From the NCBI RefSeq assembly GCF_016650035.1, contig NZ_JAENWM010000028.1:1-42118 (forward strand): DNA of 42,118 bases, written 5' to 3'. A program made the translations under genes and the position numbers. Every line of letters starts with the position of its first letter. Position 1 is the stretch's first letter. Positions 23,319 to 41,733 of the stretch are shown in pieces. A model generated the notes under the pieces. The model was not told the origin of the DNA, did no database searches, and saw only the letters and a list, made by a program, of their open reading frames with translations. This stretch comes from Clostridium sp. Its GTDB lineage: Bacteria; Bacillota; Clostridia; Clostridiales; Clostridiaceae.

Positions 23319-23434
23319 TAATTAGATTCATTTATTCTCCGAGTCATATTTCCTAAGGGTTTCTATGGGATTATGACCGTTAGGGTTAGATTGGAAACGA
23401 TTTAGCCTTCCATTTGAAAAGGGGGATGCTTAAT
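23319..23434 (+). promoter_or_regulatory. Moco/Tuco-type riboswitch candidate upstream of tupA
   Basis: The leader shows the pattern of the Moco RNA motif in its short, P3-less (Tuco) form. P1 pairs TCTCC (23336-23340) with GGGGA (23422-23426) and can extend outward through ATTA/TAAT. P2 pairs GTCAT (23343-23347) with ATGAC (23373-23377), enclosing the CCTAAGGGT segment. A further stem pairs GGTTAGAT (23384-23391) with ATTTAGCC (23400-23407), capped by TGGAAACG, and is followed by CTTCCATTTG. The family is a proposed sensor of molybdenum or tungsten pyranopterin cofactor. The downstream genes are exactly those it would be expected to control. The tupA ribosome site GAGGGGG lies 30 nt later, so translational control is possible. 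The identification is by pattern from memory, not by a covariance search. Confidence 0.75.
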
Positions 23435-23477
23435 TGTCATTCTCTTTTATATATAAAATATATGAGGGGGTTTTTTT

Positions 23478-31787: not shown

Positions 31788-33671
31788 ATGGATGAACACA
31801 TCGAAGCGTCACACGATAGGTGTAAGACTATGGAATTACTACCTGGTATTTTATTTAGCACCAAGGTAATAGAAGGCGAGGAACTACAGAAAAACTTAGA
31901 AAAAAACAGTGAATTTATATTAAATGCAGCTCCATTTATTAATCATTTATATGATTTCGTAAGAGGTTCTGAGTTTTTTGCATTACTGTGCGACGGCGAT
32001 GGATGTATCTTAAACGTAGTTGGAGATGAAAATATATTATTAGAATCTTCTAAACTTAAAATGATTACTGGTGCATACATGGATGAAGCTCATATTGGGA
32101 CTAATGCAATGAGCCTTGTAATATCTGAAGGACGCCCCTCTCAGGTGTCTGGCAAGGAACATTTTATTAATGCATATCATAAATGGACATGTTCTGCAGC
32201 ACCAATTAAGGATGGACATGGAAATATAATCGGTATGATAAACTTAACTGGGTATATAGAAAATGTAAATCCTCATACCTTGGGCATGGTAGTAGCAGCA
32301 GCTGATGCTATTGAAAGAATGATTGAGAACAACAAATATAATTCAATGATTAAAATGTGCAAGAAGCGTCTAGAAACTACCTTTGATTCCATTTCTTCGG
32401 GAATTTTGACTTGTGATTTATTTGGAAATATTACAACAATGAATAAGCAAGTTGCTAAGATGTTAGGTTATGATGCAAGAGAAATGAAAAGTATGAAAAT
32501 GCCTAATTTGATTTTAAGTTTTCATGAAATAATAGACAGGCTTAAGTTAACAGGTAACTTTACGGATGAGGATATATATGTAAATACGCCAGTGAATAAA
32601 TTGCAATTTACTCTTACAGCATACCCAATTTATGACATTGATATGAATATTGAAGAAATAACACTTGTATTTTATGAATTGAAAAAGAGTAGGAAGCTTG
32701 CGGGGAGAATCTTAAGCGGGCAAGCAATATATACTTTTGACAAAATAATAGGGAAAAACGAAAAATTCAAAAAGCTTATTGAGTACTCTAAAAAGATAGC
32801 CGATAGTAAGTCTACAATACTAATTACTGGTGAAAGTGGAACTGGCAAAGAAGTCTTTGCTCAATCAATTCACAATCACAGTAACCGTAGTGAAGAGGCA
32901 TTTATAGCGGTGAACTGTGGCGCTATTCCTAGAACACTTATAGAATCAGAACTTTTTGGTTATGAGGGTGGAGCTTTTACTGGTGCCAAAAAAGGTGGGA
33001 ATGTAGGGAAATTTGAACTTGCAGATGGAGGTACAATTTTTCTGGATGAAATAGGAGAAATGCCTTCTGATATGCAAAACAAATTATTAAGAGTAATAGA
33101 AGAAGGCGTAGTAAATAGAATAGGAAGTACAAAACAAATAAATATCGATGTAAGGATTATGGCGGCTTCAAATAAGGATTTGCAGCATGAGGTGGAAATA
33201 GGAAATTTCAGAAAAGATCTTTTTTATAGACTAAATGTTCTTCCATTACACTTACCATCACTTAGAGAACGTAGGGACGATATTGCAGAACTCGTGAATT
33301 ACTATATGAGAAAAACTTCTAAGAAACTTAATAAGCGCAGCGTGGATATTTCAGAAGAATATATGAACTACCTTAAAAATTACGATTGGCCGGGAAATAT
33401 AAGAGAACTTGAAAATGTAATTGAGCGTATAGTTAATTCCGAAGTAATTCAGATGAATTTATATAATGAAGTAGCTGAAAATAAGGAGAAATCCAATGAT
33501 TCATATATAGGAATAACTTTAGAACAAATGGAAAAACATCATATAACTGAAGTTATTAAAGAAGTTAATGGCAATATGACCTTAGCTGCAAAAATATTAG
33601 ATGTTGCAAGAAGTTCGCTGTACAGAAAAGTTGAAAAATATAATATAGATTATAAGGGAATAGAAAATTAA
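31788..33671 (+). CDS. sigma-54-dependent transcriptional activator (AcoR-like)
   Basis: A 627-aa bacterial enhancer-binding protein. Domains: GAF-type sensor (about 45-180, with AHIGTNAMSLVISEGRPSQVSG- and HKWTCSAAPIKDGHG-type blocks as in AcoR), PAS (about 192-300), AAA+ (about 318-545; Walker A GESGTGKE 348-355, GAFTGA loop 395-400 that contacts sigma-54, Walker B FLDEIGEMP, arginine fingers in FRKDLFYRLNVLPL), and a Fis-type helix-turn-helix (about 595-620, AAKILDVARSSLYRKV). It is the last gene of the tup-moa operon, 3 bp after a MOSC gene. A perfect sigma-54 promoter with inverted-repeat upstream sites precedes the second AOR (39719-39891), the obvious target. The ligand is unknown; an aldehyde, acid or cofactor is plausible. 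Confidence 0.93.
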   Translation: MDEHIEASHDRCKTMELLPGILFSTKVIEGEELQKNLEKNSEFILNAAPFINHLYDFVRGSEFFALLCDGDGCILNVVGDENILLESSKLKMITGAYMDEAHIGTNAMSLVISEGRPSQVSGKEHFINAYHKWTCSAAPIKDGHGNIIGMINLTGYIENVNPHTLGMVVAAADAIERMIENNKYNSMIKMCKKRLETTFDSISSGILTCDLFGNITTMNKQVAKMLGYDAREMKSMKMPNLILSFHEIIDRLKLTGNFTDEDIYVNTPVNKLQFTLTAYPIYDIDMNIEEITLVFYELKKSRKLAGRILSGQAIYTFDKIIGKNEKFKKLIEYSKKIADSKSTILITGESGTGKEVFAQSIHNHSNRSEEAFIAVNCGAIPRTLIESELFGYEGGAFTGAKKGGNVGKFELADGGTIFLDEIGEMPSDMQNKLLRVIEEGVVNRIGSTKQINIDVRIMAASNKDLQHEVEIGNFRKDLFYRLNVLPLHLPSLRERRDDIAELVNYYMRKTSKKLNKRSVDISEEYMNYLKNYDWPGNIRELENVIERIVNSEVIQMNLYNEVAENKEKSNDSYIGITLEQMEKHHITEVIKEVNGNMTLAAKILDVARSSLYRKVEKYNIDYKGIEN

Positions 33672-33775
33672 CAAAAAATATATTTTTAGAAATAAAGGAT
33701 TATTGGATTTAATGTGGAAATATATAGAGTATAAGGAATTTTATTTCTAAATAGTTTTGTTACAAATTATATTGT

Positions 33776-33864
33776 ACTCCAATCTTATTTAACCTTAAGG
33801 GTAAGGTATTTAAGACGTTAGGGCGTAGAGAGTGATTTCTACACCTGCCATTGTGTGAAGGAGT
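33776..33864 (+). promoter_or_regulatory. second, diverged Moco/Tuco-like RNA before the AOR operon
   Basis: This leader aligns with the RNA at 23319-23434 stem by stem but with changed bases. P1 pairs ACTCC (33776-33780) with GGAGT (33860-33864), where the first copy has TCTCC/GGGGA. P2 pairs TCTTA (33783-33787) with TAAGA (33811-33815), where the first has GTCAT/ATGAC. The shared unpaired parts include TTAAGGGT, GACGTTAGGG (first copy GACCGTTAGGG) and CCATT. The third stem pairs GTAGA (33825-33829) with TCTAC (33838-33842). Compensatory change in three stems with conserved joints supports a common RNA family and the same kind of ligand. A TATATT at 33768-33773 is a weak -10. The RNA ends 107 nt before the ferredoxin ATG. 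Confidence 0.6.
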
Positions 33865-33971
33865 TCATATTCAAGAAGACATTTATGTGTTTTTGGATAT
33901 GGACTCTTTTTATATTTTAAAAATAAGGAGGTGTGAGTTGGAATCTTGTGTGCAAGATATCCAGCAAAAAA

Positions 33972-34451
33972 ATGGAAAAACAATTAATAATTTCACCGGA
34001 AAAATGCACCGGTTGCAGAACTTGCGAAATGGCTTGTTCATTCGCAAAGACAAATGCATTTAATCCACAAAATGCAACAGTATCAGTTTTTCAGTATGAA
34101 GAAGCAATGATATCTGTACCAGTAATGTGTCTTCAGTGTGAAGATCCATACTGTATGAAGGTATGTGTAGTGGGTGCCATTACTAAAAATGAAAACGGTA
34201 CCGTGGTGGTAAATCAGGATAAATGTATAGGGTGTAAGCTTTGTATTAGTGCTTGTCCATTTGGGAATATGAGTTTTAATTCGGAAAATAAATCATTAGT
34301 TAAATGTGATTTATGTGGTGGCAATCCAAGCTGTGCAGAATTTTGCCCTTCAGGAGCAATAGAGTTTAGAGAGGCAAGTCCCTATGAACTTAATAAGAAA
34401 AAGTTAGTTGCAGATAAATTCAGAGATTTATTAGCGGAGGTGGATAAATAA
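33972..34451 (+). CDS. four-cluster ferredoxin-like subunit paired with AOR (WorS/HycB-type)
   Basis: A 159-aa iron-sulfur protein with 16 cysteines for four [4Fe-4S] clusters: [36 protein letters not shown], and [15 protein letters not shown]. This is the CooF/HycB/AorA type of electron-transfer subunit. It shares a TAATG junction with the AOR gene, so it should carry electrons from the tungsten enzyme to the NuoEF-like proteins. The start is set at ATG 33972, where homologues usually begin ([15 protein letters not shown]). The best ribosome site, AAGGAGG (33925-33931), is 40 nt upstream; it serves GTG 33933 in frame (spacing too short) or TTG 33938 out of frame. An A7 run (33966-33972) lies between. 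The true start is therefore uncertain. Confidence 0.85.
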
Positions 34452-36259
34452 TGTTTGGATGGATGGGAAAAATTTTGAGAGTAAATTTATCAAATGGTGA
34501 CATAAATATAGAAAATCTGAACATGGAAGATGCTAAACTCTATATTGGTGGAAGAGGACTTGGAACAAAGATATTTATGGATGAAGTGGAACCTACTGTG
34601 GAACCTTTTAGCCCAGAAAATAAATTGATATTTATTACAGGACCACTTACCGGAACTTTCGGAGCATCGGCAGGAAGATATGAGGTGGTAGCAAAGGCAC
34701 CACTTACTGGAACTATAGGAGCATCAAATTCAGGAGGGCATTTTGGACCTGAACTTAAATTTGCTGGGTATGATGGAATAATATTTGAGGGTAAGTCTGA
34801 AAAACCTGTTTATTTATATGTTAATAATGATAGTGTGGAACTTAGAAGTGCAGAGCATTTATGGGGAAAAACTGTTTTTGAAACTACAGACGATGTGCTT
34901 AAGGAAACGGATCCAAATGCAAGGGTAGCTTGCATTGGACCTTCAGGTGAAAAGCTTGTACTATTTGCTACAGTTATGAATGATAAACATAGAGCTGCAG
35001 GAAGATCAGGTCTTGGTGCTGTTATGGGTTCTAAAAATCTTAAGGCTGTGGTAGTTAGAGGTACAGGAACTGTAGAAGTGGCAAAACCATTAGAATTTAT
35101 GGCTGCTTGCACGGATGCAAGGGCTAAGATTAAAGCTAATCCAGTAACAGGTGTGGGATTACCCACTTATGGTAGTCAAATACTTGTTAACATATTAAAT
35201 CAATCAGGAGCACTTCCAACTAGAAACTGGAGAGATGGAGGAGTATATGAAAATGCGGAGGAGATAAGCGGTGAGGCACTTACTGAAAAATATTTAGTTA
35301 AAGGTAAAGGTTGCTTTGCTTGTTCAATAGGATGTGGACGTTTAACTAAAATTAAAGAGGGAAAATTCAAAAGTTCTGGTGAAGGTCCCGAATATGAAGC
35401 AGGTTGGTCGTTTGGAGCAGACTGTGGGGTTAAAGAGCTTGATGCAGTTTGCAAGGCTAATTTTATATGTAATGAGTATGGGCTGGATCCTATAACTCTT
35501 GGTTCAACAATAGCATGTGCAATGGAGCTTTATGATAAAGGCTTAATTACAAAAGATGAATTAGGTGGAGAACTTAAATTTGGAAATGCAGAGGCAGTAG
35601 TTGATTTTACATTGAAGACTGCAAAACGAGAGGGTTTTGGCGACAAACTTGCAGAGGGGTCTTATAGGCTTGCTGAGTCTTATGGTCATAGTGAACTTTC
35701 TATGTCTGTTAAAAAACAGGAGATGTCAGCTTATGATGCAAGAGCAATTCAAGGTATAGGGCTAGGATTTGCAACATCTAATAGAGGGGCATGCCATGTA
35801 AGAGGCTATATGATATCGCCTGAAATACTTGGTCTACCTCAAAAACTTGATCCACTTGTGACTACTGATAAAGCTCAGTGGCTAATTATTTTTCAAGACC
35901 TTACTGCTGTAGTGGATTCGGCAGGAATATGTTTATTTACTACGTTTGCTATTGGACTTCCTGAAATTTCTGCAATGATTAGAACAGCTATAGGTTACGA
36001 TTTCACAGATGAAGAGATTTTACAGGCGGGAGAGAGAATATGGAATTTAGAAAAACTTTTCAATCTAAAAGCGGGATTTACAAAAGCTGATGATACATTA
36101 CCTGAAAGATTACTTAATGAACCATTACCGGAGGGACCAGGAAAAGGAATGGTTGTAGAACTGGATACTATGTTAGGTGAGTACTATTCACTACGTGGTT
36201 GGGATAAAGAAAGTATTCCAACAGAGGCAAAGATTAAAGAATTGTCTATAGTTTATTAA
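34451..36259 (+). CDS. tungsten-dependent aldehyde ferredoxin oxidoreductase (complex type)
   Basis: A 602-aa AOR-family catalytic subunit. It binds one W-bis-pyranopterin and one [4Fe-4S] cluster; ligands are C288/C291/C295 (GCFACSIGC) and the Cys of AGICLFTTF near 498. Pterin-contact segments are [10 protein letters not shown] (33-42), [17 protein letters not shown] (64-80) and [19 protein letters not shown] (181-199). [12 protein letters not shown] (311-322) carries the active-site acid. It oxidises aldehydes to acids, or runs in reverse with low-potential ferredoxin. Genes for a four-cluster ferredoxin, MoaD and NuoE/F/G-like proteins surround it, so it is probably the large subunit of an NAD(H)- and ferredoxin-linked complex. 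The substrate is not known. Confidence 0.93.
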
Positions 36260-36303: not shown

Positions 36304-36328
36304 TACTATATAAATATGAGGTGTGGTA

Positions 36329-36598
36329 ATGAAGGTTAAATTTTTTGCATATTTAAGGGATTATACAAAAACGAAACAAGTAGATATAAGTGGATGTAAT
36401 ACAGTATTAGAGCTTTTAAATTTGTTAAGCGATAAATATGGTAAAGATTTAAGGAAAGCACTATTTAAGAACTCAGAGTTAAGCGACGAAATTATTATTC
36501 TAGTTAATGGAAGACATATTACACATTTAAATGGTGTTAAAACAGAAATTAGTGAGAACGACGAAATATCCATATTCCCTGTAGTGGCAGGAGGCTAA
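36329..36598 (+). CDS. moaD: MoaD-family sulfur carrier protein
   Basis: An 89-aa ubiquitin-fold protein ending in Gly-Gly (VVAGG), the tail that carries thiocarboxylate sulfur into molybdopterin. Conserved parts are VKFFAYLRDYTK at the start and IILVNGRHI in the middle. ATG 36329 is used because GAGGTG lies 6-9 nt upstream; GTG 36323 overlaps that site. AOR gene clusters often hold a dedicated MoaD-like protein. No MoaE (the large synthase subunit) or MoeB (activating enzyme) is in this window. Confidence 0.9.
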   Translation: MKVKFFAYLRDYTKTKQVDISGCNTVLELLNLLSDKYGKDLRKALFKNSELSDEIIILVNGRHITHLNGVKTEISENDEISIFPVVAGG

Positions 36599-37123
36599 AT
36601 GGGGAAAATATTAGTAGAAGGTGAAAATATTATGGTTACATCTGAGAAATATGTGGACTTAGCGCATGTAGATGAAATTTTAAATAAACATCCAAAAGAG
36701 CAGAGGTTTACCTTAGCAATTCTTCAAGATATACAAAAGGAATATAGATATATTCCAAGAGAAGCTCTTAATAAAGTTTCAGATTATCTGAGTATTCCTC
36801 TAAGCAAATTATACGGTATGGCTACATTTTATAAAGCTTTAAGTCTTGTTCCAAAAGGAGAAAACATAATAACAGTATGCGATGGTACGGCTTGTCATGT
36901 ACGAGGTTCAGTTGGCGTACTAGAACAAATACAAAATTATCTCCATATCATGCCAGGAGAAACAACTGAAAATGGTAAGTTTTCACTTCAGACCGTGAAC
37001 TGTTTAGGTTCTTGTGCCATTGCGCCTGTAATGGTTATAAATGATAAATATTATGGAAAAGTAACTCCAAATATGATTAAAGATATTATAAATCAATATG
37101 GAGGGGATGAAATTCATGAATAG
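36599..37123 (+). CDS. NuoE-like [2Fe-2S] subunit
   Basis: A 174-aa thioredoxin-fold subunit of the NuoE/HydC family with one [2Fe-2S] cluster: C94 and C99 (VCDGTACHVRG), C135 and C139 (CLGSCAIAPVM). It normally sits next to the flavin subunit in NADH dehydrogenases, bifurcating hydrogenases and NADH-linked AOR complexes. The ATG at 36599 follows the moaD stop directly, with AGGAGG 4 nt before it; a second in-frame ATG at 36632 with GAAGGTGA is also possible. It overlaps the NuoF-like gene by 8 bp. Confidence 0.92.
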   Translation: MGKILVEGENIMVTSEKYVDLAHVDEILNKHPKEQRFTLAILQDIQKEYRYIPREALNKVSDYLSIPLSKLYGMATFYKALSLVPKGENIITVCDGTACHVRGSVGVLEQIQNYLHIMPGETTENGKFSLQTVNCLGSCAIAPVMVINDKYYGKVTPNMIKDIINQYGGDEIHE

Positions 37124-38924
37124 TGTTAAAGAAGATAAAAGGATAATTTATGTATGCTGTGGTACTGGATGTCTTGCTAATGGAAGTAAAGAATTATATG
37201 AAACACTGAAGGAAAAAATTGAAAAGTTAGGGGCACCAATATCAGTGGAAACTTATATAAAGCCAACTGGTTGTAACGGACTTTGTGAAAAGGGACCTGT
37301 TGTAAAAATAATGCCAGATGATATTTCTTATTTTAATGTTAGAGAAAAGGATGTAGAGGAAATAGTAGAAAAAACAATAGTTAAAGGACAGGTTATTGAT
37401 AGACTCCTCTACTTTGATATATCTCTTAAGAAAAAAGTTAAATCTCATAAAGAAAGTGAATTTTATAAAAGGCAAATGAAAATTGCTTTAAGAAATATTG
37501 GTGAAATAGATCCAACAAGTATTGACGATTACATAGAAAGAGATGGTTTTAGGGCTTTAAAGAAGGCACTATTTGATATACCAAGGGAAAATATAATTAA
37601 AGAGGTGTCATTATCTGGACTTAAGGGAAGAGGAGGGGCTGGATTTCCTACAGGTACTAAGTGGAAGCAGTGTGATTCAATAGAAAGTTTTCCTAAGTAT
37701 GTGGTATGTAATGGAGATGAAGGTGATCCTGGCGCCTTTATGGATAGAAGCATTATGGAAGGGGATCCGGGTAATGTGATAGAAGGTATGACCATATGTG
37801 CATATGCGATTGGTGCACATACTGGATTTGCTTATATAAGAGATGAATATAATTTAGCAATAAAAAATATGACATTGATTATAGAAGAGGCTAGAAGATT
37901 AGGGTACCTTGGCACTAATATAATGGGCAGTGGGTTTGATTTTGATATAGATATAGTAAGGGGTGGAGGAGCATTTGTATGCGGTGAATCCACAGCACTT
38001 ATGGCATCTATTGAAGGTAAAGTAGGAGAACCTAGAGCAAAATATATACACTCTACGCAGAAAGGACTATGGGGACAACCTACCGTATTAAACAATGTAG
38101 AGACATGGGCAAATATACCAGAAATAATTTTAAAAGGTGGGGATTGGTATAGCTCTATTGGTACTGAAAACAGTAAAGGAACTAAAGTATTTTCATTGGT
38201 TGGTAAGGTTAAAAATACAGGGCTTGTAGAAGTCCCAATGGGTACAACTCTAAGGGAACTAATATATGACATAGGTGGAGGAGTAATAGGTAACAAAAAG
38301 TTTAAGGCCGTTCAAATAGGTGGACCATCAGGAGCTTGCATACCCGAGCAGTATCTTGATTTAAAAGTGGACTATGAATCTCTTGCTAAGGCAGATGCCA
38401 TTATGGGTTCTGGTGGTATGATTGTTATGGACGAAAGAAACTGTATGGTTGATGTAGCTAAGTATTATTTGAATTTTCTTTCTGAGGAATCCTGTGGAAA
38501 ATGCACACCTTGTAGAGAAGGGATAAGAAGGATGCTGGAGATACTTAATGATATATGTGAAGGTCGTGGAAGAGAAGGGGATATTGAAAGGATCATTAAA
38601 ATATCCGATACGGTTTTGGAAGCTTCGCTATGTGGACTTGGGAAAAGTGCGCCAAATCCTATTTTATCTGCAATAAAGTATTTTAGAAATGAATTTGATG
38701 AGCATATAAGGGATAAGAGATGTTCTGCAGGCGTATGTAAAGAACTAACCACTTTTTATATTGATACAGATAAATGTATTGGTTGTGGCGTTTGTAAGAA
38801 GAATTGTCCTTCAGATGCGATAACGGGAGATATTAAAAAGGCACATATAATTAATCTAGATAAATGTACTAAGTGTGGCAATTGTATAAATAACTGCAAA
38901 TTTAATGCAGTAATGGTAAAATAG
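37116..38924 (+). CDS. NuoF/HydB-like NADH-binding flavoprotein subunit
   Basis: A 602-aa subunit with an N-terminal thioredoxin-like [2Fe-2S] domain (C14/C15, C19, C53, C57 region). The NuoF core follows: NAD-binding GLKGRGGAGFPTGTKW (about 170-185), FMN-binding NGDEGDPGAFMDRSIM, GGGAFVCGESTALMASIEG, and [4Fe-4S] SCGKCTPCREG. A C-terminal 2[4Fe-4S] ferredoxin domain is present (CIGCGVCKKNCP and CTKCGNCINNC). This exact build is that of HydB in bifurcating hydrogenases and of the flavin subunit of bifurcating W-oxidoreductases, where the FMN/cluster set splits electrons between NAD+ and ferredoxin. The start at ATG 37116 is 11 nt after GGAGG; earlier in-frame ATGs (37098, 37107) sit on or before that site. 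Confidence 0.93.
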   Translation: MNSVKEDKRIIYVCCGTGCLANGSKELYETLKEKIEKLGAPISVETYIKPTGCNGLCEKGPVVKIMPDDISYFNVREKDVEEIVEKTIVKGQVIDRLLYFDISLKKKVKSHKESEFYKRQMKIALRNIGEIDPTSIDDYIERDGFRALKKALFDIPRENIIKEVSLSGLKGRGGAGFPTGTKWKQCDSIESFPKYVVCNGDEGDPGAFMDRSIMEGDPGNVIEGMTICAYAIGAHTGFAYIRDEYNLAIKNMTLIIEEARRLGYLGTNIMGSGFDFDIDIVRGGGAFVCGESTALMASIEGKVGEPRAKYIHSTQKGLWGQPTVLNNVETWANIPEIILKGGDWYSSIGTENSKGTKVFSLVGKVKNTGLVEVPMGTTLRELIYDIGGGVIGNKKFKAVQIGGPSGACIPEQYLDLKVDYESLAKADAIMGSGGMIVMDERNCMVDVAKYYLNFLSEESCGKCTPCREGIRRMLEILNDICEGRGREGDIERIIKISDTVLEASLCGLGKSAPNPILSAIKYFRNEFDEHIRDKRCSAGVCKELTTFYIDTDKCIGCGVCKKNCPSDAITGDIKKAHIINLDKCTKCGNCINNCKFNAVMVK

Positions 38925-38935
38925 GGGGTGACATC

Positions 38936-39706
38936 ATGAAAATAACGATAGATGGTAAACAATATGAAGCTGAGAAGGGAGAGTATATACTTAGTGTTTG
39001 TAAAAGAAATGGAATTGCTATACCCACTCTTTGTGATAGTGATGCACTTCCAGGTCAAGGTAGCTGCAGACTATGTATTGTAGAAGTTATTGACAGAGGT
39101 TGGGCAAAAGTTGTAACTTCATGCTTATATCCAATAACAAAACAAGTAGAGGTACTTACTAAATCTGAAAAAATAATGAGTATGAGAAAAACAATAATTA
39201 CGCTTCTTACTGCACGTGTTCCGCAAAATGAGTACATGATAAAGTTAAAAAATGAGTATGGTGTACTTGATGAGGAAATAGAAAGATTTAAGTTGGATGA
39301 CTTGGAGAATTGCATACTTTGTGGACTTTGTGTAAAAGCTTGTGAAGAAGTAGGTATCAATGCCATATCAACTGTAAACAGGGGTGTAACGAAAAAAATA
39401 TCTACTCCTTATGATGAACCTTCAGAAGGCTGCATAGGCTGTGGAGCATGTAGTTTTGTTTGTCCAACAGGGGCTATAATAATGAAGGACACTAAGGATA
39501 TAAGGACTATTTGGGGAAAGACATTTAAGCTTCTTAAATGTGAGAAATGCGGGAGTTATTTCACGACTAAACAGCATTTTGATTATGTTACAAAAAAATT
39601 AAATGAATTTAAAAGAGAAGAACTATGTGAAGATTGCAAAAAAAAGATTGTTTCAGAAAAATTTAGAGATGTATCTGAAAATATTAATCTAACAATTAAT
39701 AATTAA
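38936..39706 (+). CDS. NuoG/HydA N-terminal-like iron-sulfur subunit
   Basis: A 256-aa protein matching only the electron-input half of NuoG or HydA. It has a plant-type [2Fe-2S] domain (LCDSD..., C-x-C in GQGSCRLCIVEV, then the fourth Cys in SCLYP), a short NADH-dehydrogenase-type linker, then two [4Fe-4S] motifs (CILCGLCVKACEE, CIGCGACSFVCP). There is no H-cluster or molybdopterin domain. After about residue 195 a CEKCG ... CEDCK pair resembles a zinc ribbon or rubredoxin-like site, which I do not recall from standard NuoG. It probably bridges the NuoF-like flavin to the AOR and ferredoxin. Ribosome site GGGGGTG. Confidence 0.88.
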   Translation: MKITIDGKQYEAEKGEYILSVCKRNGIAIPTLCDSDALPGQGSCRLCIVEVIDRGWAKVVTSCLYPITKQVEVLTKSEKIMSMRKTIITLLTARVPQNEYMIKLKNEYGVLDEEIERFKLDDLENCILCGLCVKACEEVGINAISTVNRGVTKKISTPYDEPSEGCIGCGACSFVCPTGAIIMKDTKDIRTIWGKTFKLLKCEKCGSYFTTKQHFDYVTKKLNEFKREELCEDCKKKIVSEKFRDVSENINLTINN

Positions 39707-39891: not shown

Positions 39892-39936
39892 CTATATATA
39901 AATATGTATAACAAAATAGAGTGAGGAGTGATTTTT

Positions 39937-41733
39937 ATGTATGGTTACAATGGTAAAATATTAAGAATTAATTTAAAGGATAGAACGGTTAAGGTTGAAG
40001 CTCTTGACTTAGAAATAGCTAAAAAATTTATTGGCGGTAGAGGACTTGGAACGAAAATATTCATGGACGAGGTAGATCCTATGGTTGATCCATTAAGCCC
40101 TGAAAATAAGCTTATAATTATTACAGGACCATTAACAGGCACACCTGTTCCAACTGGCGGAAGATATATGGTAGTTACAAAATCGCCACAATCAGGTACA
40201 ATTGCTTGTTCAAATTCAGGTGGTTATTGGGGAGCTGAATTTAAGGCTACAGGTTATGATATAATCATACTTGAAGGTAAAGCAGATTCACCAGTTTACT
40301 TAACCATAATAGATGATAAGGTAGAAATAAAGGATGCAAGTAGTCTTTGGGGAAAACTTGTTACAGAAACTACTGATATAATTAAGAGTGAAATGCCAGA
40401 TAAATCAAAAGTTATGACTATTGGACCAGCAGGTGAAAGATTATCTAAAATGGGTTCAATAATGAATGAGTATGACAGAGCAGCAGGCCGTTCTGGTGTT
40501 GGAGCTGTTATGGGTTCTAAAAACCTTAAAGCTATTGCTGTTAAAGGAAGCTCAAAGCCACAAGTAGCAGATACTGAAAAGCTAAAAGAGGTTTCAAAAA
40601 TTTGGATGAAGAACATAAAAGAGAATGGTGTTACAGGAGCAGGTCTTCCAACATACGGAACTGCAATCCTTGTAAATATACTAAATGAAAACGGTGTACA
40701 TCCAGCTAATAATTTCCAGCAGTCTTATTTTGAAAAAGCTGATGATATTAGTGGAGAGACAATGACTAAAGATATCTTAGTTAGAAAAAATCCTTGTTAT
40801 AGATGTCCAATCGCATGTGGTAGATATGTAAAAATACCAGATATGGGTATAGAAGTTGGGGGACCAGAATATGAAACACTATGGTCTTTTGGTTCGGATT
40901 GTGGAATAGCTGATATGAATGCAATATGCAAGGCAAACTATTGGTGTAATGAATATGGTATGGATACAATTTCTGTAGGAGCTACTATTGCCGCTGGAAT
41001 GGAACTTTATCAAAAGGGATATATTAAAGAAGAAGAACTAGAGGGAATTCCACTAGAATTTGGGAATGTACAAGGAATGATAGATTGGACTATAAAAATA
41101 GGAAAATCAGAAGGACTCGGAGCGAAAATGGCTCAGGGTTCATACAGACTTTGTGATTCATATGGCGCAGCTGAACTTTCAATGACAGTTAAAAAGCTTG
41201 AAATTCCTGCTTATGATCCAAGAGGTATACAGGGACAAGGGCTTTCATACGCTACATCCAACAGGGGTGGGTGCCATGTAAGAGGATATATGATATCACC
41301 AGAAATATTAGGGCTTCCACAAAAATTGGATAGATTTTCGCTTGAGGGAAAAGCTACTTGGACAAAGATTTTTCAAGATTTAACTGCAACTATAGATTCA
41401 CTTGGATTATGTTTATTTACATCATTTGCTATGGGAGCTCCTGATTATGCTGATTTATATAATGCAGTATGTGGTACAGATCACACCGCGGAATCTATAC
41501 TTGAAGCAGGAGATAGAATCTACAATATAGAAAGACAATTTAATTTAAGTGCTGGAATAGATGCGTCGCAAGATACACTTCCTAAAAGATTACTTGAAGA
41601 GCCAATTAAAGAAGGCCCTTCTAAGGGAAATGTACACAGATTATCTGAACTTCTTCCAGATTATTATCTCGAGAGAGGCTGGGATGAAAAAGGTATTCCA
41701 ACAGAAGAAAAATTAAAAGCATTGGGGTTATAA
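39937..41733 (+). CDS. aldehyde ferredoxin oxidoreductase (stand-alone type)
   Basis: A 598-aa AOR, related to the first AOR over its whole length. The [4Fe-4S] ligands are C287/C290/C294 (PCYRCPIAC) and the Cys of LGLCLFTSF near 493; pterin segments [27 protein letters not shown] and [19 protein letters not shown] are all present. It has no ferredoxin or Nuo-like gene attached, only a MoaD gene downstream, so it fits the single-subunit ferredoxin-linked AOR known from acetogenic clostridia, which interconverts carboxylic acids and aldehydes. It has its own sigma-54 promoter, unlike the first AOR. The start is ATG 39937, with GAGGAG 9 nt upstream; GTG 39928 is adjacent to that site. Confidence 0.94.
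   Translation: MYGYNGKILRINLKDRTVKVEALDLEIAKKFIGGRGLGTKIFMDEVDPMVDPLSPENKLIIITGPLTGTPVPTGGRYMVVTKSPQSGTIACSNSGGYWGAEFKATGYDIIILEGKADSPVYLTIIDDKVEIKDASSLWGKLVTETTDIIKSEMPDKSKVMTIGPAGERLSKMGSIMNEYDRAAGRSGVGAVMGSKNLKAIAVKGSSKPQVADTEKLKEVSKIWMKNIKENGVTGAGLPTYGTAILVNILNENGVHPANNFQQSYFEKADDISGETMTKDILVRKNPCYRCPIACGRYVKIPDMGIEVGGPEYETLWSFGSDCGIADMNAICKANYWCNEYGMDTISVGATIAAGMELYQKGYIKEEELEGIPLEFGNVQGMIDWTIKIGKSEGLGAKMAQGSYRLCDSYGAAELSMTVKKLEIPAYDPRGIQGQGLSYATSNRGGCHVRGYMISPEILGLPQKLDRFSLEGKATWTKIFQDLTATIDSLGLCLFTSFAMGAPDYADLYNAVCGTDHTAESILEAGDRIYNIERQFNLSAGIDASQDTLPKRLLEEPIKEGPSKGNVHRLSELLPDYYLERGWDEKGIPTEEKLKALGL

Follow-up and report, generated by a model that had tools for sequence, protein, structure and literature searches.

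The window, which comprises positions 1 to 42,118 of a Clostridium sp. contig (NZ_JAENWM010000028.1), carries an operon for a bifurcating aldehyde ferredoxin oxidoreductase (AOR; also WOR) that is preceded by a structured leader (Table 1). The operon continues with a gene for a MoaD-like protein and with NuoE-, NuoF- and NuoG-like genes, the Nuo labels being read by eye from the translations. About 10 kb away, a first RNA of the same type precedes tupABC and a series of genes for cofactor synthesis. The AOR leader is itself directly preceded by a gene for a sigma-54-dependent regulator (31788-33671; DhaR/PrdR-like matches below cut-off), and no -24/-12 site was seen by eye. A second AOR gene (39928-41733) follows the operon and has no riboswitch match, and a third is located on another contig. 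A molybdopterin oxidoreductase gene at G000:C141:10018-11292 (L270) has one in-frame TGA and perhaps encodes a selenocysteine formate dehydrogenase (FDH).

The Rfam model for the Moco riboswitch, RF01055, matches the AOR leader with 38.8 bits (E 7e-6; gathering score 36) and the tupA leader with 73.8 bits, and there are no other matches in the whole genome (3.97 Mb, 167 contigs). R1, a covariance model of the AOR subtype described below, likewise returns only these two leaders from a whole-genome search and no third copy. It gives 77.0 bits to the AOR copy, which is itself one of its 17 source leaders, and 55.2 bits to the tupA copy. R1 has no match near ModA, the other AOR genes or the molybdopterin enzymes, a set of five loci to which the AOR of the studied operon (L269) does not belong. 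The AOR-leader RNA is a genuine member of the known Moco/Tuco family, as a preliminary description of this DNA had proposed. The same description suggested that standard models may overlook this copy, which RF01055 finds above its cut-off.

The RF01055 family, its P3-less Tuco type and its terminator and ribosome-site platforms are described in the parts of Regulski et al. (2008; PMC2408646) considered here. Like the Moco motif, the AOR leader has P1, P2, P4, P5 and the junction, is located upstream of cofactor genes and scores above the curated cut-off; positions 33776-33864 are the exact P1-to-P1 span within the RF01055 match. A two-base joint occupies the place of P3, as in the P3-less Tuco type, and the neighbours are also those given for that type in the same parts of the paper, namely tupABC and tungsten-enzyme genes. 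In this genome they are TupA (NF041772 at E 3e-67, with 226.8 bits against a cut-off of 400) and AOR, and there is also one ModA. The GUGA loop of P4 has no partner receptor in P2. A receptor is not strictly required, because members lacking it are reported in the portions of PMC2408646 consulted.

The two copies in the window keep the same pairings with different bases. P1 is ACTCC/GGAGT in the AOR leader and TCTCC/GGGGA in the tupA leader, P2 is TCTTA/TAAGA in the former and GTCAT/ATGAC in the latter, and the third stem of the preliminary description is present in the AOR leader as P4. Two joints were also thought to be kept. One of them, CGTTAGGG, is indeed conserved, whereas TAAGGGT is probably a coincidence: on our reading of the alignments, it belongs to the tetraloop receptor (CCUAAG..UAUGG) in the tupA copy and falls in the P2 loop in the AOR copy. 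The feature as a whole runs on to 33910, because the expression platform shares bases with P1.

Table 1. Features of the two leaders and of the AOR operon, in window positions.
Feature	Position	Strand	Evidence
First copy, Moco/Tuco aptamer before tupABC	23325..23440	+	RF01055, 73.8 bits
tupA-leader antiterminator, P1 3' strand 23421-23428 with 23438-23444	23421..23444	+	fold, leader classing
tupA-leader hairpin holding the Shine-Dalgarno; U-run 23471-23477 (seven U), start GTG 23478	23442..23470	+	fold
Moco/Tuco riboswitch aptamer, AOR subtype	33765..33879	+	RF01055, 38.8 bits; R1, 77.0 bits at 33771-33868
P1 5' strand ACTCC	33776..33780	+	covariance-model alignment, fold
P2, base TCTTA/TAAGA (33783-33787/33811-33815), no tetraloop receptor	33783..33815	+	model alignment, fold
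Conserved joint; P3 absent (Tuco type)	33816..33823	+	RF01055 alignment, sequence
P4, GTAGAGA-[GTGA]-TTTCTAC, GUGA (GNRA) loop 33832-33835	33825..33842	+	model alignment, fold
P5, G-U/C-G	33847..33856	+	model alignment; subtype usually G-C/C-G, main family C-G/C-G
Intrinsic terminator hairpin, incompatible with P1; U-run 33907-33911	33857..33910	+	-28.1 kcal/mol, z -8.68
P1 3' strand GGAGT, common to P1 and terminator	33860..33864	+	covariation, fold
Shine-Dalgarno AGGAGG of first operon gene	33926..33931	+	sequence
Bulged hairpin between Shine-Dalgarno and start codon	33937..33965	+	-13.6 kcal/mol, z -3.18
AorFd, ferredoxin-like iron-sulphur subunit; probable start ATG 33972, not GTG 33933	33972..34451	+	alignment A1
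AOR, tungsten-type aldehyde ferredoxin oxidoreductase	34451..36259	+	AFOR_C over cut-off; NF007354 E 7e-76, below cut-off
MoaD-like (36323-36598), then NuoE-, NuoF- and NuoG-like	36323..39706	+	MoaD TIGR01687 over cut-off

Related leaders in Clostridia

RF01055 searches of 17 genomes of the genus, 194 of the family and 391 of the class yielded 185 distinct matches, three of them below cut-off; the family- and class-wide searches were filtered at the expense of weak matches. Downstream genes were labelled by BLAST against the window proteins and by Pfam and NCBIfam on representatives, with mechanical gene starts. They encode AorFd-AOR (15), other AOR (6), FDH with a ferredoxin (2), NuoE or hydrogenase (12), Tup (44), cofactor biosynthesis proteins (43), other ABC transporters (13) and other products (50). 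Moco/Tuco RNAs also precede genes for FecCD-type and Peripla_BP_2 ABC transporters (L107, L143, L147, L154 and others). This agrees with a passage of a 2026 paper (PMC13390469), which mentions, with reference to PNAS 2025, that iron transporters of E. limosum have tungsten-dependent riboswitches.

The AOR leader belongs to a subtype that recurs in front of bifurcating-AOR operons of Clostridia. The AorFd-AOR leaders are 110-115 nucleotides long, lack P3, resemble one another in different families and differ from the other copies in their own genomes. Among the 185 matches, the 3' strand of P5 reads GC in 16 of the 23 AOR/FDH leaders versus none of the 162 others; UGCAAAGG usually precedes P1 in the AorFd-AOR leaders, with the outer P5 pair changed from C-G to G-C. 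The receptor-like pattern is found in 0 of 15 AorFd-AOR, 0 of 2 FDH and 2 of 6 other-AOR leaders, versus 32 of 44 Tup and 34 of 43 biosynthesis leaders. An alignment of 17 leaders (A2: the 15 AorFd-AOR leaders minus L175 and L176, which have lower similarity, plus two other AOR and two FDH leaders) has the GNRA loops GUAA (7), GCAA (4), GUGA (1) and GAAA (5). Thus, 12 of 17 differ from the GAAA loop that, in the portion of PMC2408646 cited here, characterizes all but five of 176 members.

Given its departures from the main family in P5 and in the tetraloop/receptor contact, the subtype might sense another ligand, such as a different form or precursor of the tungsten cofactor, which would be compatible with ON regulation. 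The P5 and receptor counts speak for such a change. Against this, the junction joints are unchanged, the P5 difference may just tune stem stability, and two of the six other-AOR leaders do have the receptor pattern; we consider a different ligand unlikely.

Pairing is conserved in the 17-leader alignment. There, 86% of cells are paired, and two-sided changes are present in 16 of 28 pairs, in P1, P2 and P4. The 61 two-sided cells compare with 26.1 (sd 4.9) in shuffled alignments, of which none of 500 reaches 61, and all slid controls are lower than the real alignment. P2 is paired in 72% of cells, and the two P5 pairs hold in all 17 leaders without two-sided change inside the subtype. The compensatory change claimed from the two copies of one genome is therefore beyond chance, and the stems are kept in orthologous AOR leaders.

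The subtype was also found outside this sample. A search with AorFd gave 226 related stretches, of which the best 80 were taken from named records; in 39 of these 80, R1 detects a copy on the sense strand just before AorFd. Ten of the 39 come from genomes already in R1 and 29 from outside, and one ends at a contig end. The genera include Lutispora, Caloramator, Maledivibacter, Sedimentibacter, Eubacterium, Dorea, Faecalicatena and Mordavella. Of the 39 leaders, RF01055 recovers 30 at its cut-off and misses nine. Three AorFd loci (L220, L231, L233) have an extra riboswitch copy upstream on the opposite strand, presumably for a divergent gene. In its own genus, the genome studied here is the only one with a close AorFd, the next best having 42% identity, and the closest AorFd among the best 80 of 226 stretches is that of Clostridium bovifaecis (73%). 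This patchy distribution of operon and leader makes horizontal transfer or repeated loss likely.

A Moco RNA in E. limosum at 3,421,126, with an experimental start site, was reported from dRNA-seq in front of a 'hydrogenase complex' (PMC5651825). Our RF01055 match in genome G561 ends at the same coordinate and precedes AorFd-AOR-MoaD, and the two are probably the same element before the orthologous operon. In the passages considered here, that study reads the RNA as a regulator of the hydrogenase complex and gives no ON or OFF mechanism. A passage of a 2022 review (PMC9481103) places tandem tungsten-cofactor riboswitches before hydrogenase genes.

The copy in the window is a poor member of the subtype, with GU rather than GC at the P5 signature place, a GUGA loop and 38.8 bits. 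Perhaps its aptamer has decayed, such that the leader now senses nothing and the terminator attenuates constitutively. The low Rfam score, the missing receptor, the P5 wobble and the GUGA loop would fit this view, as would at least one relative (L210, a Tepidanaerobacteraceae MAG) whose AOR leader, misaligned at its 3' end, seems to lack the AAAGGAG stretch that closes the aptamer and whose switch may therefore be broken. Decay is nevertheless improbable in our judgement, given that the core, P4 and P1 are kept with compensatory changes across families.

A terminator sharing a strand with P1

The expression platform of the AOR leader is a strong intrinsic terminator, and none of 200 shuffled sequences folds as well. 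Its lower stem of 21 bp runs into the U-run and includes GGAGU (33860-33864), the 3' strand of P1, and therefore P1 and the terminator are mutually exclusive. A simple scanner lists no terminator in 33660-33980, because its loop limit is 3-8 bases. A simple promoter scan of the same interval gives no match on the forward strand and one on the reverse strand, with 1.9 expected by chance.

The leader folds to -40.8 kcal/mol when P1 is forced and to -48.6 kcal/mol when free. With P1 forced, the leftover hairpin is shorter and ends four bases before the U-run. Since the free fold is better by 7.8 kcal/mol, switching must be kinetic or paid for by the ligand and tertiary contacts.

The overlap recurs among relatives. 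At least three P1 bases belong to the best terminator in 27 of the 39 named leaders under a single-hairpin rule, and to the terminator foot in 42 of 47 AOR/FDH leaders when both samples are combined and branched hairpins are allowed (L241, cut at a contig end, is left out of the 47). From clade to clade, the arms of the terminator vary widely, and changes in the shared bases are matched by changes in both of their competing partners. In the order P1 5' strand, shared base and terminator 3' arm, base 5 of P1 reads A-U-A (15), G-C-G (7), A-U-G (5), U-A-U (2) and G-U-A (2), and base 6 reads G-C-G (6), U-A-U (4), A-U-A (4), G-U-A (1) and G-U-G (1); some leaders are near-identical (e.g. L248 and L249), and thus these counts are not independent events. 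The first two P1 bases count for little, because they mostly form G-U pairs with the U-run.

A strand shared between a ligand-stabilised helix and a terminator is predicted to produce an ON riboswitch. In the absence of ligand, GGAGU would pair with the 3' arm of the terminator, and transcription would end at 33907-33911. Binding of the tungsten (or molybdenum) pyranopterin cofactor would make the junction hold P1, which would take GGAGU from the terminator foot and leave a hairpin (33865-33902) four bases short of the U-run. RNA polymerase would then read through the broken terminator into aorFd-aor-moaD and the Nuo-like genes. The B. subtilis pbuE adenine riboswitch works in this manner, as its terminator is blocked by a ligand-stabilised P1 that uses the same strand; the AOR leader is like it in P1/terminator logic, whereas aptamer and ligand are unrelated. 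With a probability that we put at about 75%, the stretch 33765-33910 acts as a Moco/Tuco-family riboswitch that turns on transcription of the bifurcating AOR operon behind it.

A second structure is located downstream of the terminator, where a hairpin separates the Shine-Dalgarno from the start codon. The start of aorFd is therefore probably ATG 33972, and the mechanically assigned GTG 33933 is probably wrong, since alignments with homologues begin at the residue encoded by ATG 33972. A hairpin placed in this way is present in 44 of 61 parsed AorFd genes versus 9 of 152 control genes (83 loci were tried, 22 have no recognisable start motif, and the script misplaced the Shine-Dalgarno in L201). 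These 44 hairpins have 35 different 5-bp stem bases, a mean z of -3.3 and arms that are very different between clades. The hairpin is also found where R1 finds no riboswitch (e.g. L187, L197, L207). We can offer guesses as to its role: it may bring a distant Shine-Dalgarno to normal spacing, or act as a translational operator.

Predicted direction of control in supply and enzyme leaders

The tupA copy seems to be wired in the opposite direction. An alternative partner for its P1 3' strand is 23438-23444, a segment that extends into the 5' arm of the hairpin at 23442-23470. In our folds, this hairpin forms when P1 is formed, and the rival pairing wins when the P1 5' strand is removed. With the P1 3' strand as antiterminator, the wiring would be OFF, opposite to that of the AOR copy. 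Formation of P1 would permit the terminator/Shine-Dalgarno hairpin and thus shut down both tungstate uptake and the downstream cofactor genes. In the folding model, the tupA copy looks like an OFF switch, and leaders L003, L004, L005 and L026 are classed in the same way.

A first sign test by base-pair probability failed to tell the two states apart, since it still scored shortened hairpins as terminators. Counts of strong terminators that overlap P1 were then compared between leader classes, using two rules whose differing strictness accounts for their differing numbers. Among leaders with a strong terminator, the loose rule finds the overlap in 14 of 15 AorFd-AOR, 2 of 3 other AOR and 2 of 2 FDH leaders (three of the six other AOR leaders have no strong terminator), versus 6 of 32 Tup and 6 of 35 biosynthesis leaders (12 of 67 together); the Fisher p value is 6e-9, with leaders that are not independent. 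Fractions for the rest are 3/12 for Nuo/hydrogenase, 4/12 for other ABC transporters and 11/37 for others. Shuffled AOR/FDH leaders have a strong terminator in 259 of 920 cases and the overlap in 91 of 920. Given a possible common origin of the AOR leaders and the near-identity of some of them, the counts overstate independence.

The strict rule, which seeks a P1 antiterminator just in leaders not called ON, classes 2 of 44 Tup leaders as ON and 20 as OFF, and 2 of 43 biosynthesis leaders as ON and 22 as OFF. The 15 AorFd-AOR leaders include 11 ON and no OFF, the other four having a terminator apart from P1 (2) or none (2); by the order of the rule, the antiterminator test reached just the two with a separate terminator. 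There are 13 genomes with both AorFd-AOR and supply copies, and the AOR copy is strictly ON in 10 of them, while the supply copies of the same genomes are strictly ON in one (a weak hairpin) and OFF in nine.

These counts also bear on whether the AOR leader could be an ordinary OFF switch like the E. coli moaA leader, in which case the ligand would repress the operon and the terminator overlap would be incidental. Repression is the family precedent in the parts of PMC2408646 cited here, and OFF is the commonest class among supply leaders. The absence of OFF calls among the AorFd-AOR leaders (a test that reached two of them) and the three-strand covariation, which ties P1 and the terminator to the same bases, make this reading very unlikely, and we favour the ON riboswitch.

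Cofactor supply and use had been suggested to be controlled with possibly opposite sign. This is borne out in silico for the AOR and tupA copies, by platform anatomy and by the 13 two-copy genomes, but not for cofactor use generally. Leaders of other molybdenum enzymes, the Oxidored_molyb group (~1027 aa), include 6 OFF and 0 ON of 9, and those of FeFe-hydrogenases are mixed, with 2 ON and 3 OFF of 7; an ON design for cofactor-using enzymes as a general rule was rejected.

Relation to the known family and meaning

The riboswitch family itself is already known, and what this analysis adds is the predicted ON logic in a recurrent subtype. Cofactor-using enzymes are among the riboswitch neighbours in the portions of PMC2408646 considered, where direct ligand binding is not shown; according to the same portions, the 2008 work could not settle the ligand by direct binding because the cofactor is unstable. 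Sections 5, 6, 11 and 12 of that paper contain no ON prediction or gene activation that we could see. Similarly, no report of a Moco/Tuco ON switch was found among the literature entries listed and the passages considered here. The AOR subtype differs from the Moco motif in the G-C form of P5, the absent receptor and the location of the P1 3' strand inside a terminator, and its leaders differ from the P3-less Tuco type in a platform logic that is predicted to be ON. The computations establish membership in the family, the kept pairings and the exclusion between P1 and terminator with three covarying strands. Ligand binding, the identity of the ligand as Tuco and the sign in the cell are matters that we infer.

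A broader proposal, which we hold tentatively and consider possible rather than probable, is that AOR operons of Clostridia have their own Moco/Tuco subtype, with a G-C P5 and no receptor, that functions as an ON switch and may recognise the tungsten cofactor in another form. If this is true, there would be two aptamer dialects of one family in one genome, with opposite signs for uptake and use. The P5 signature offers a simple rule to find such leaders in other Clostridia, and the presence of an OFF and an ON copy in one cluster amounts to a built-in test of ligand and sign. If the AOR leader is indeed an ON switch, then the enzyme would be made just when its cofactor is present, and the cell would avoid producing a costly, multi-subunit iron-sulphur tungsten enzyme without it.
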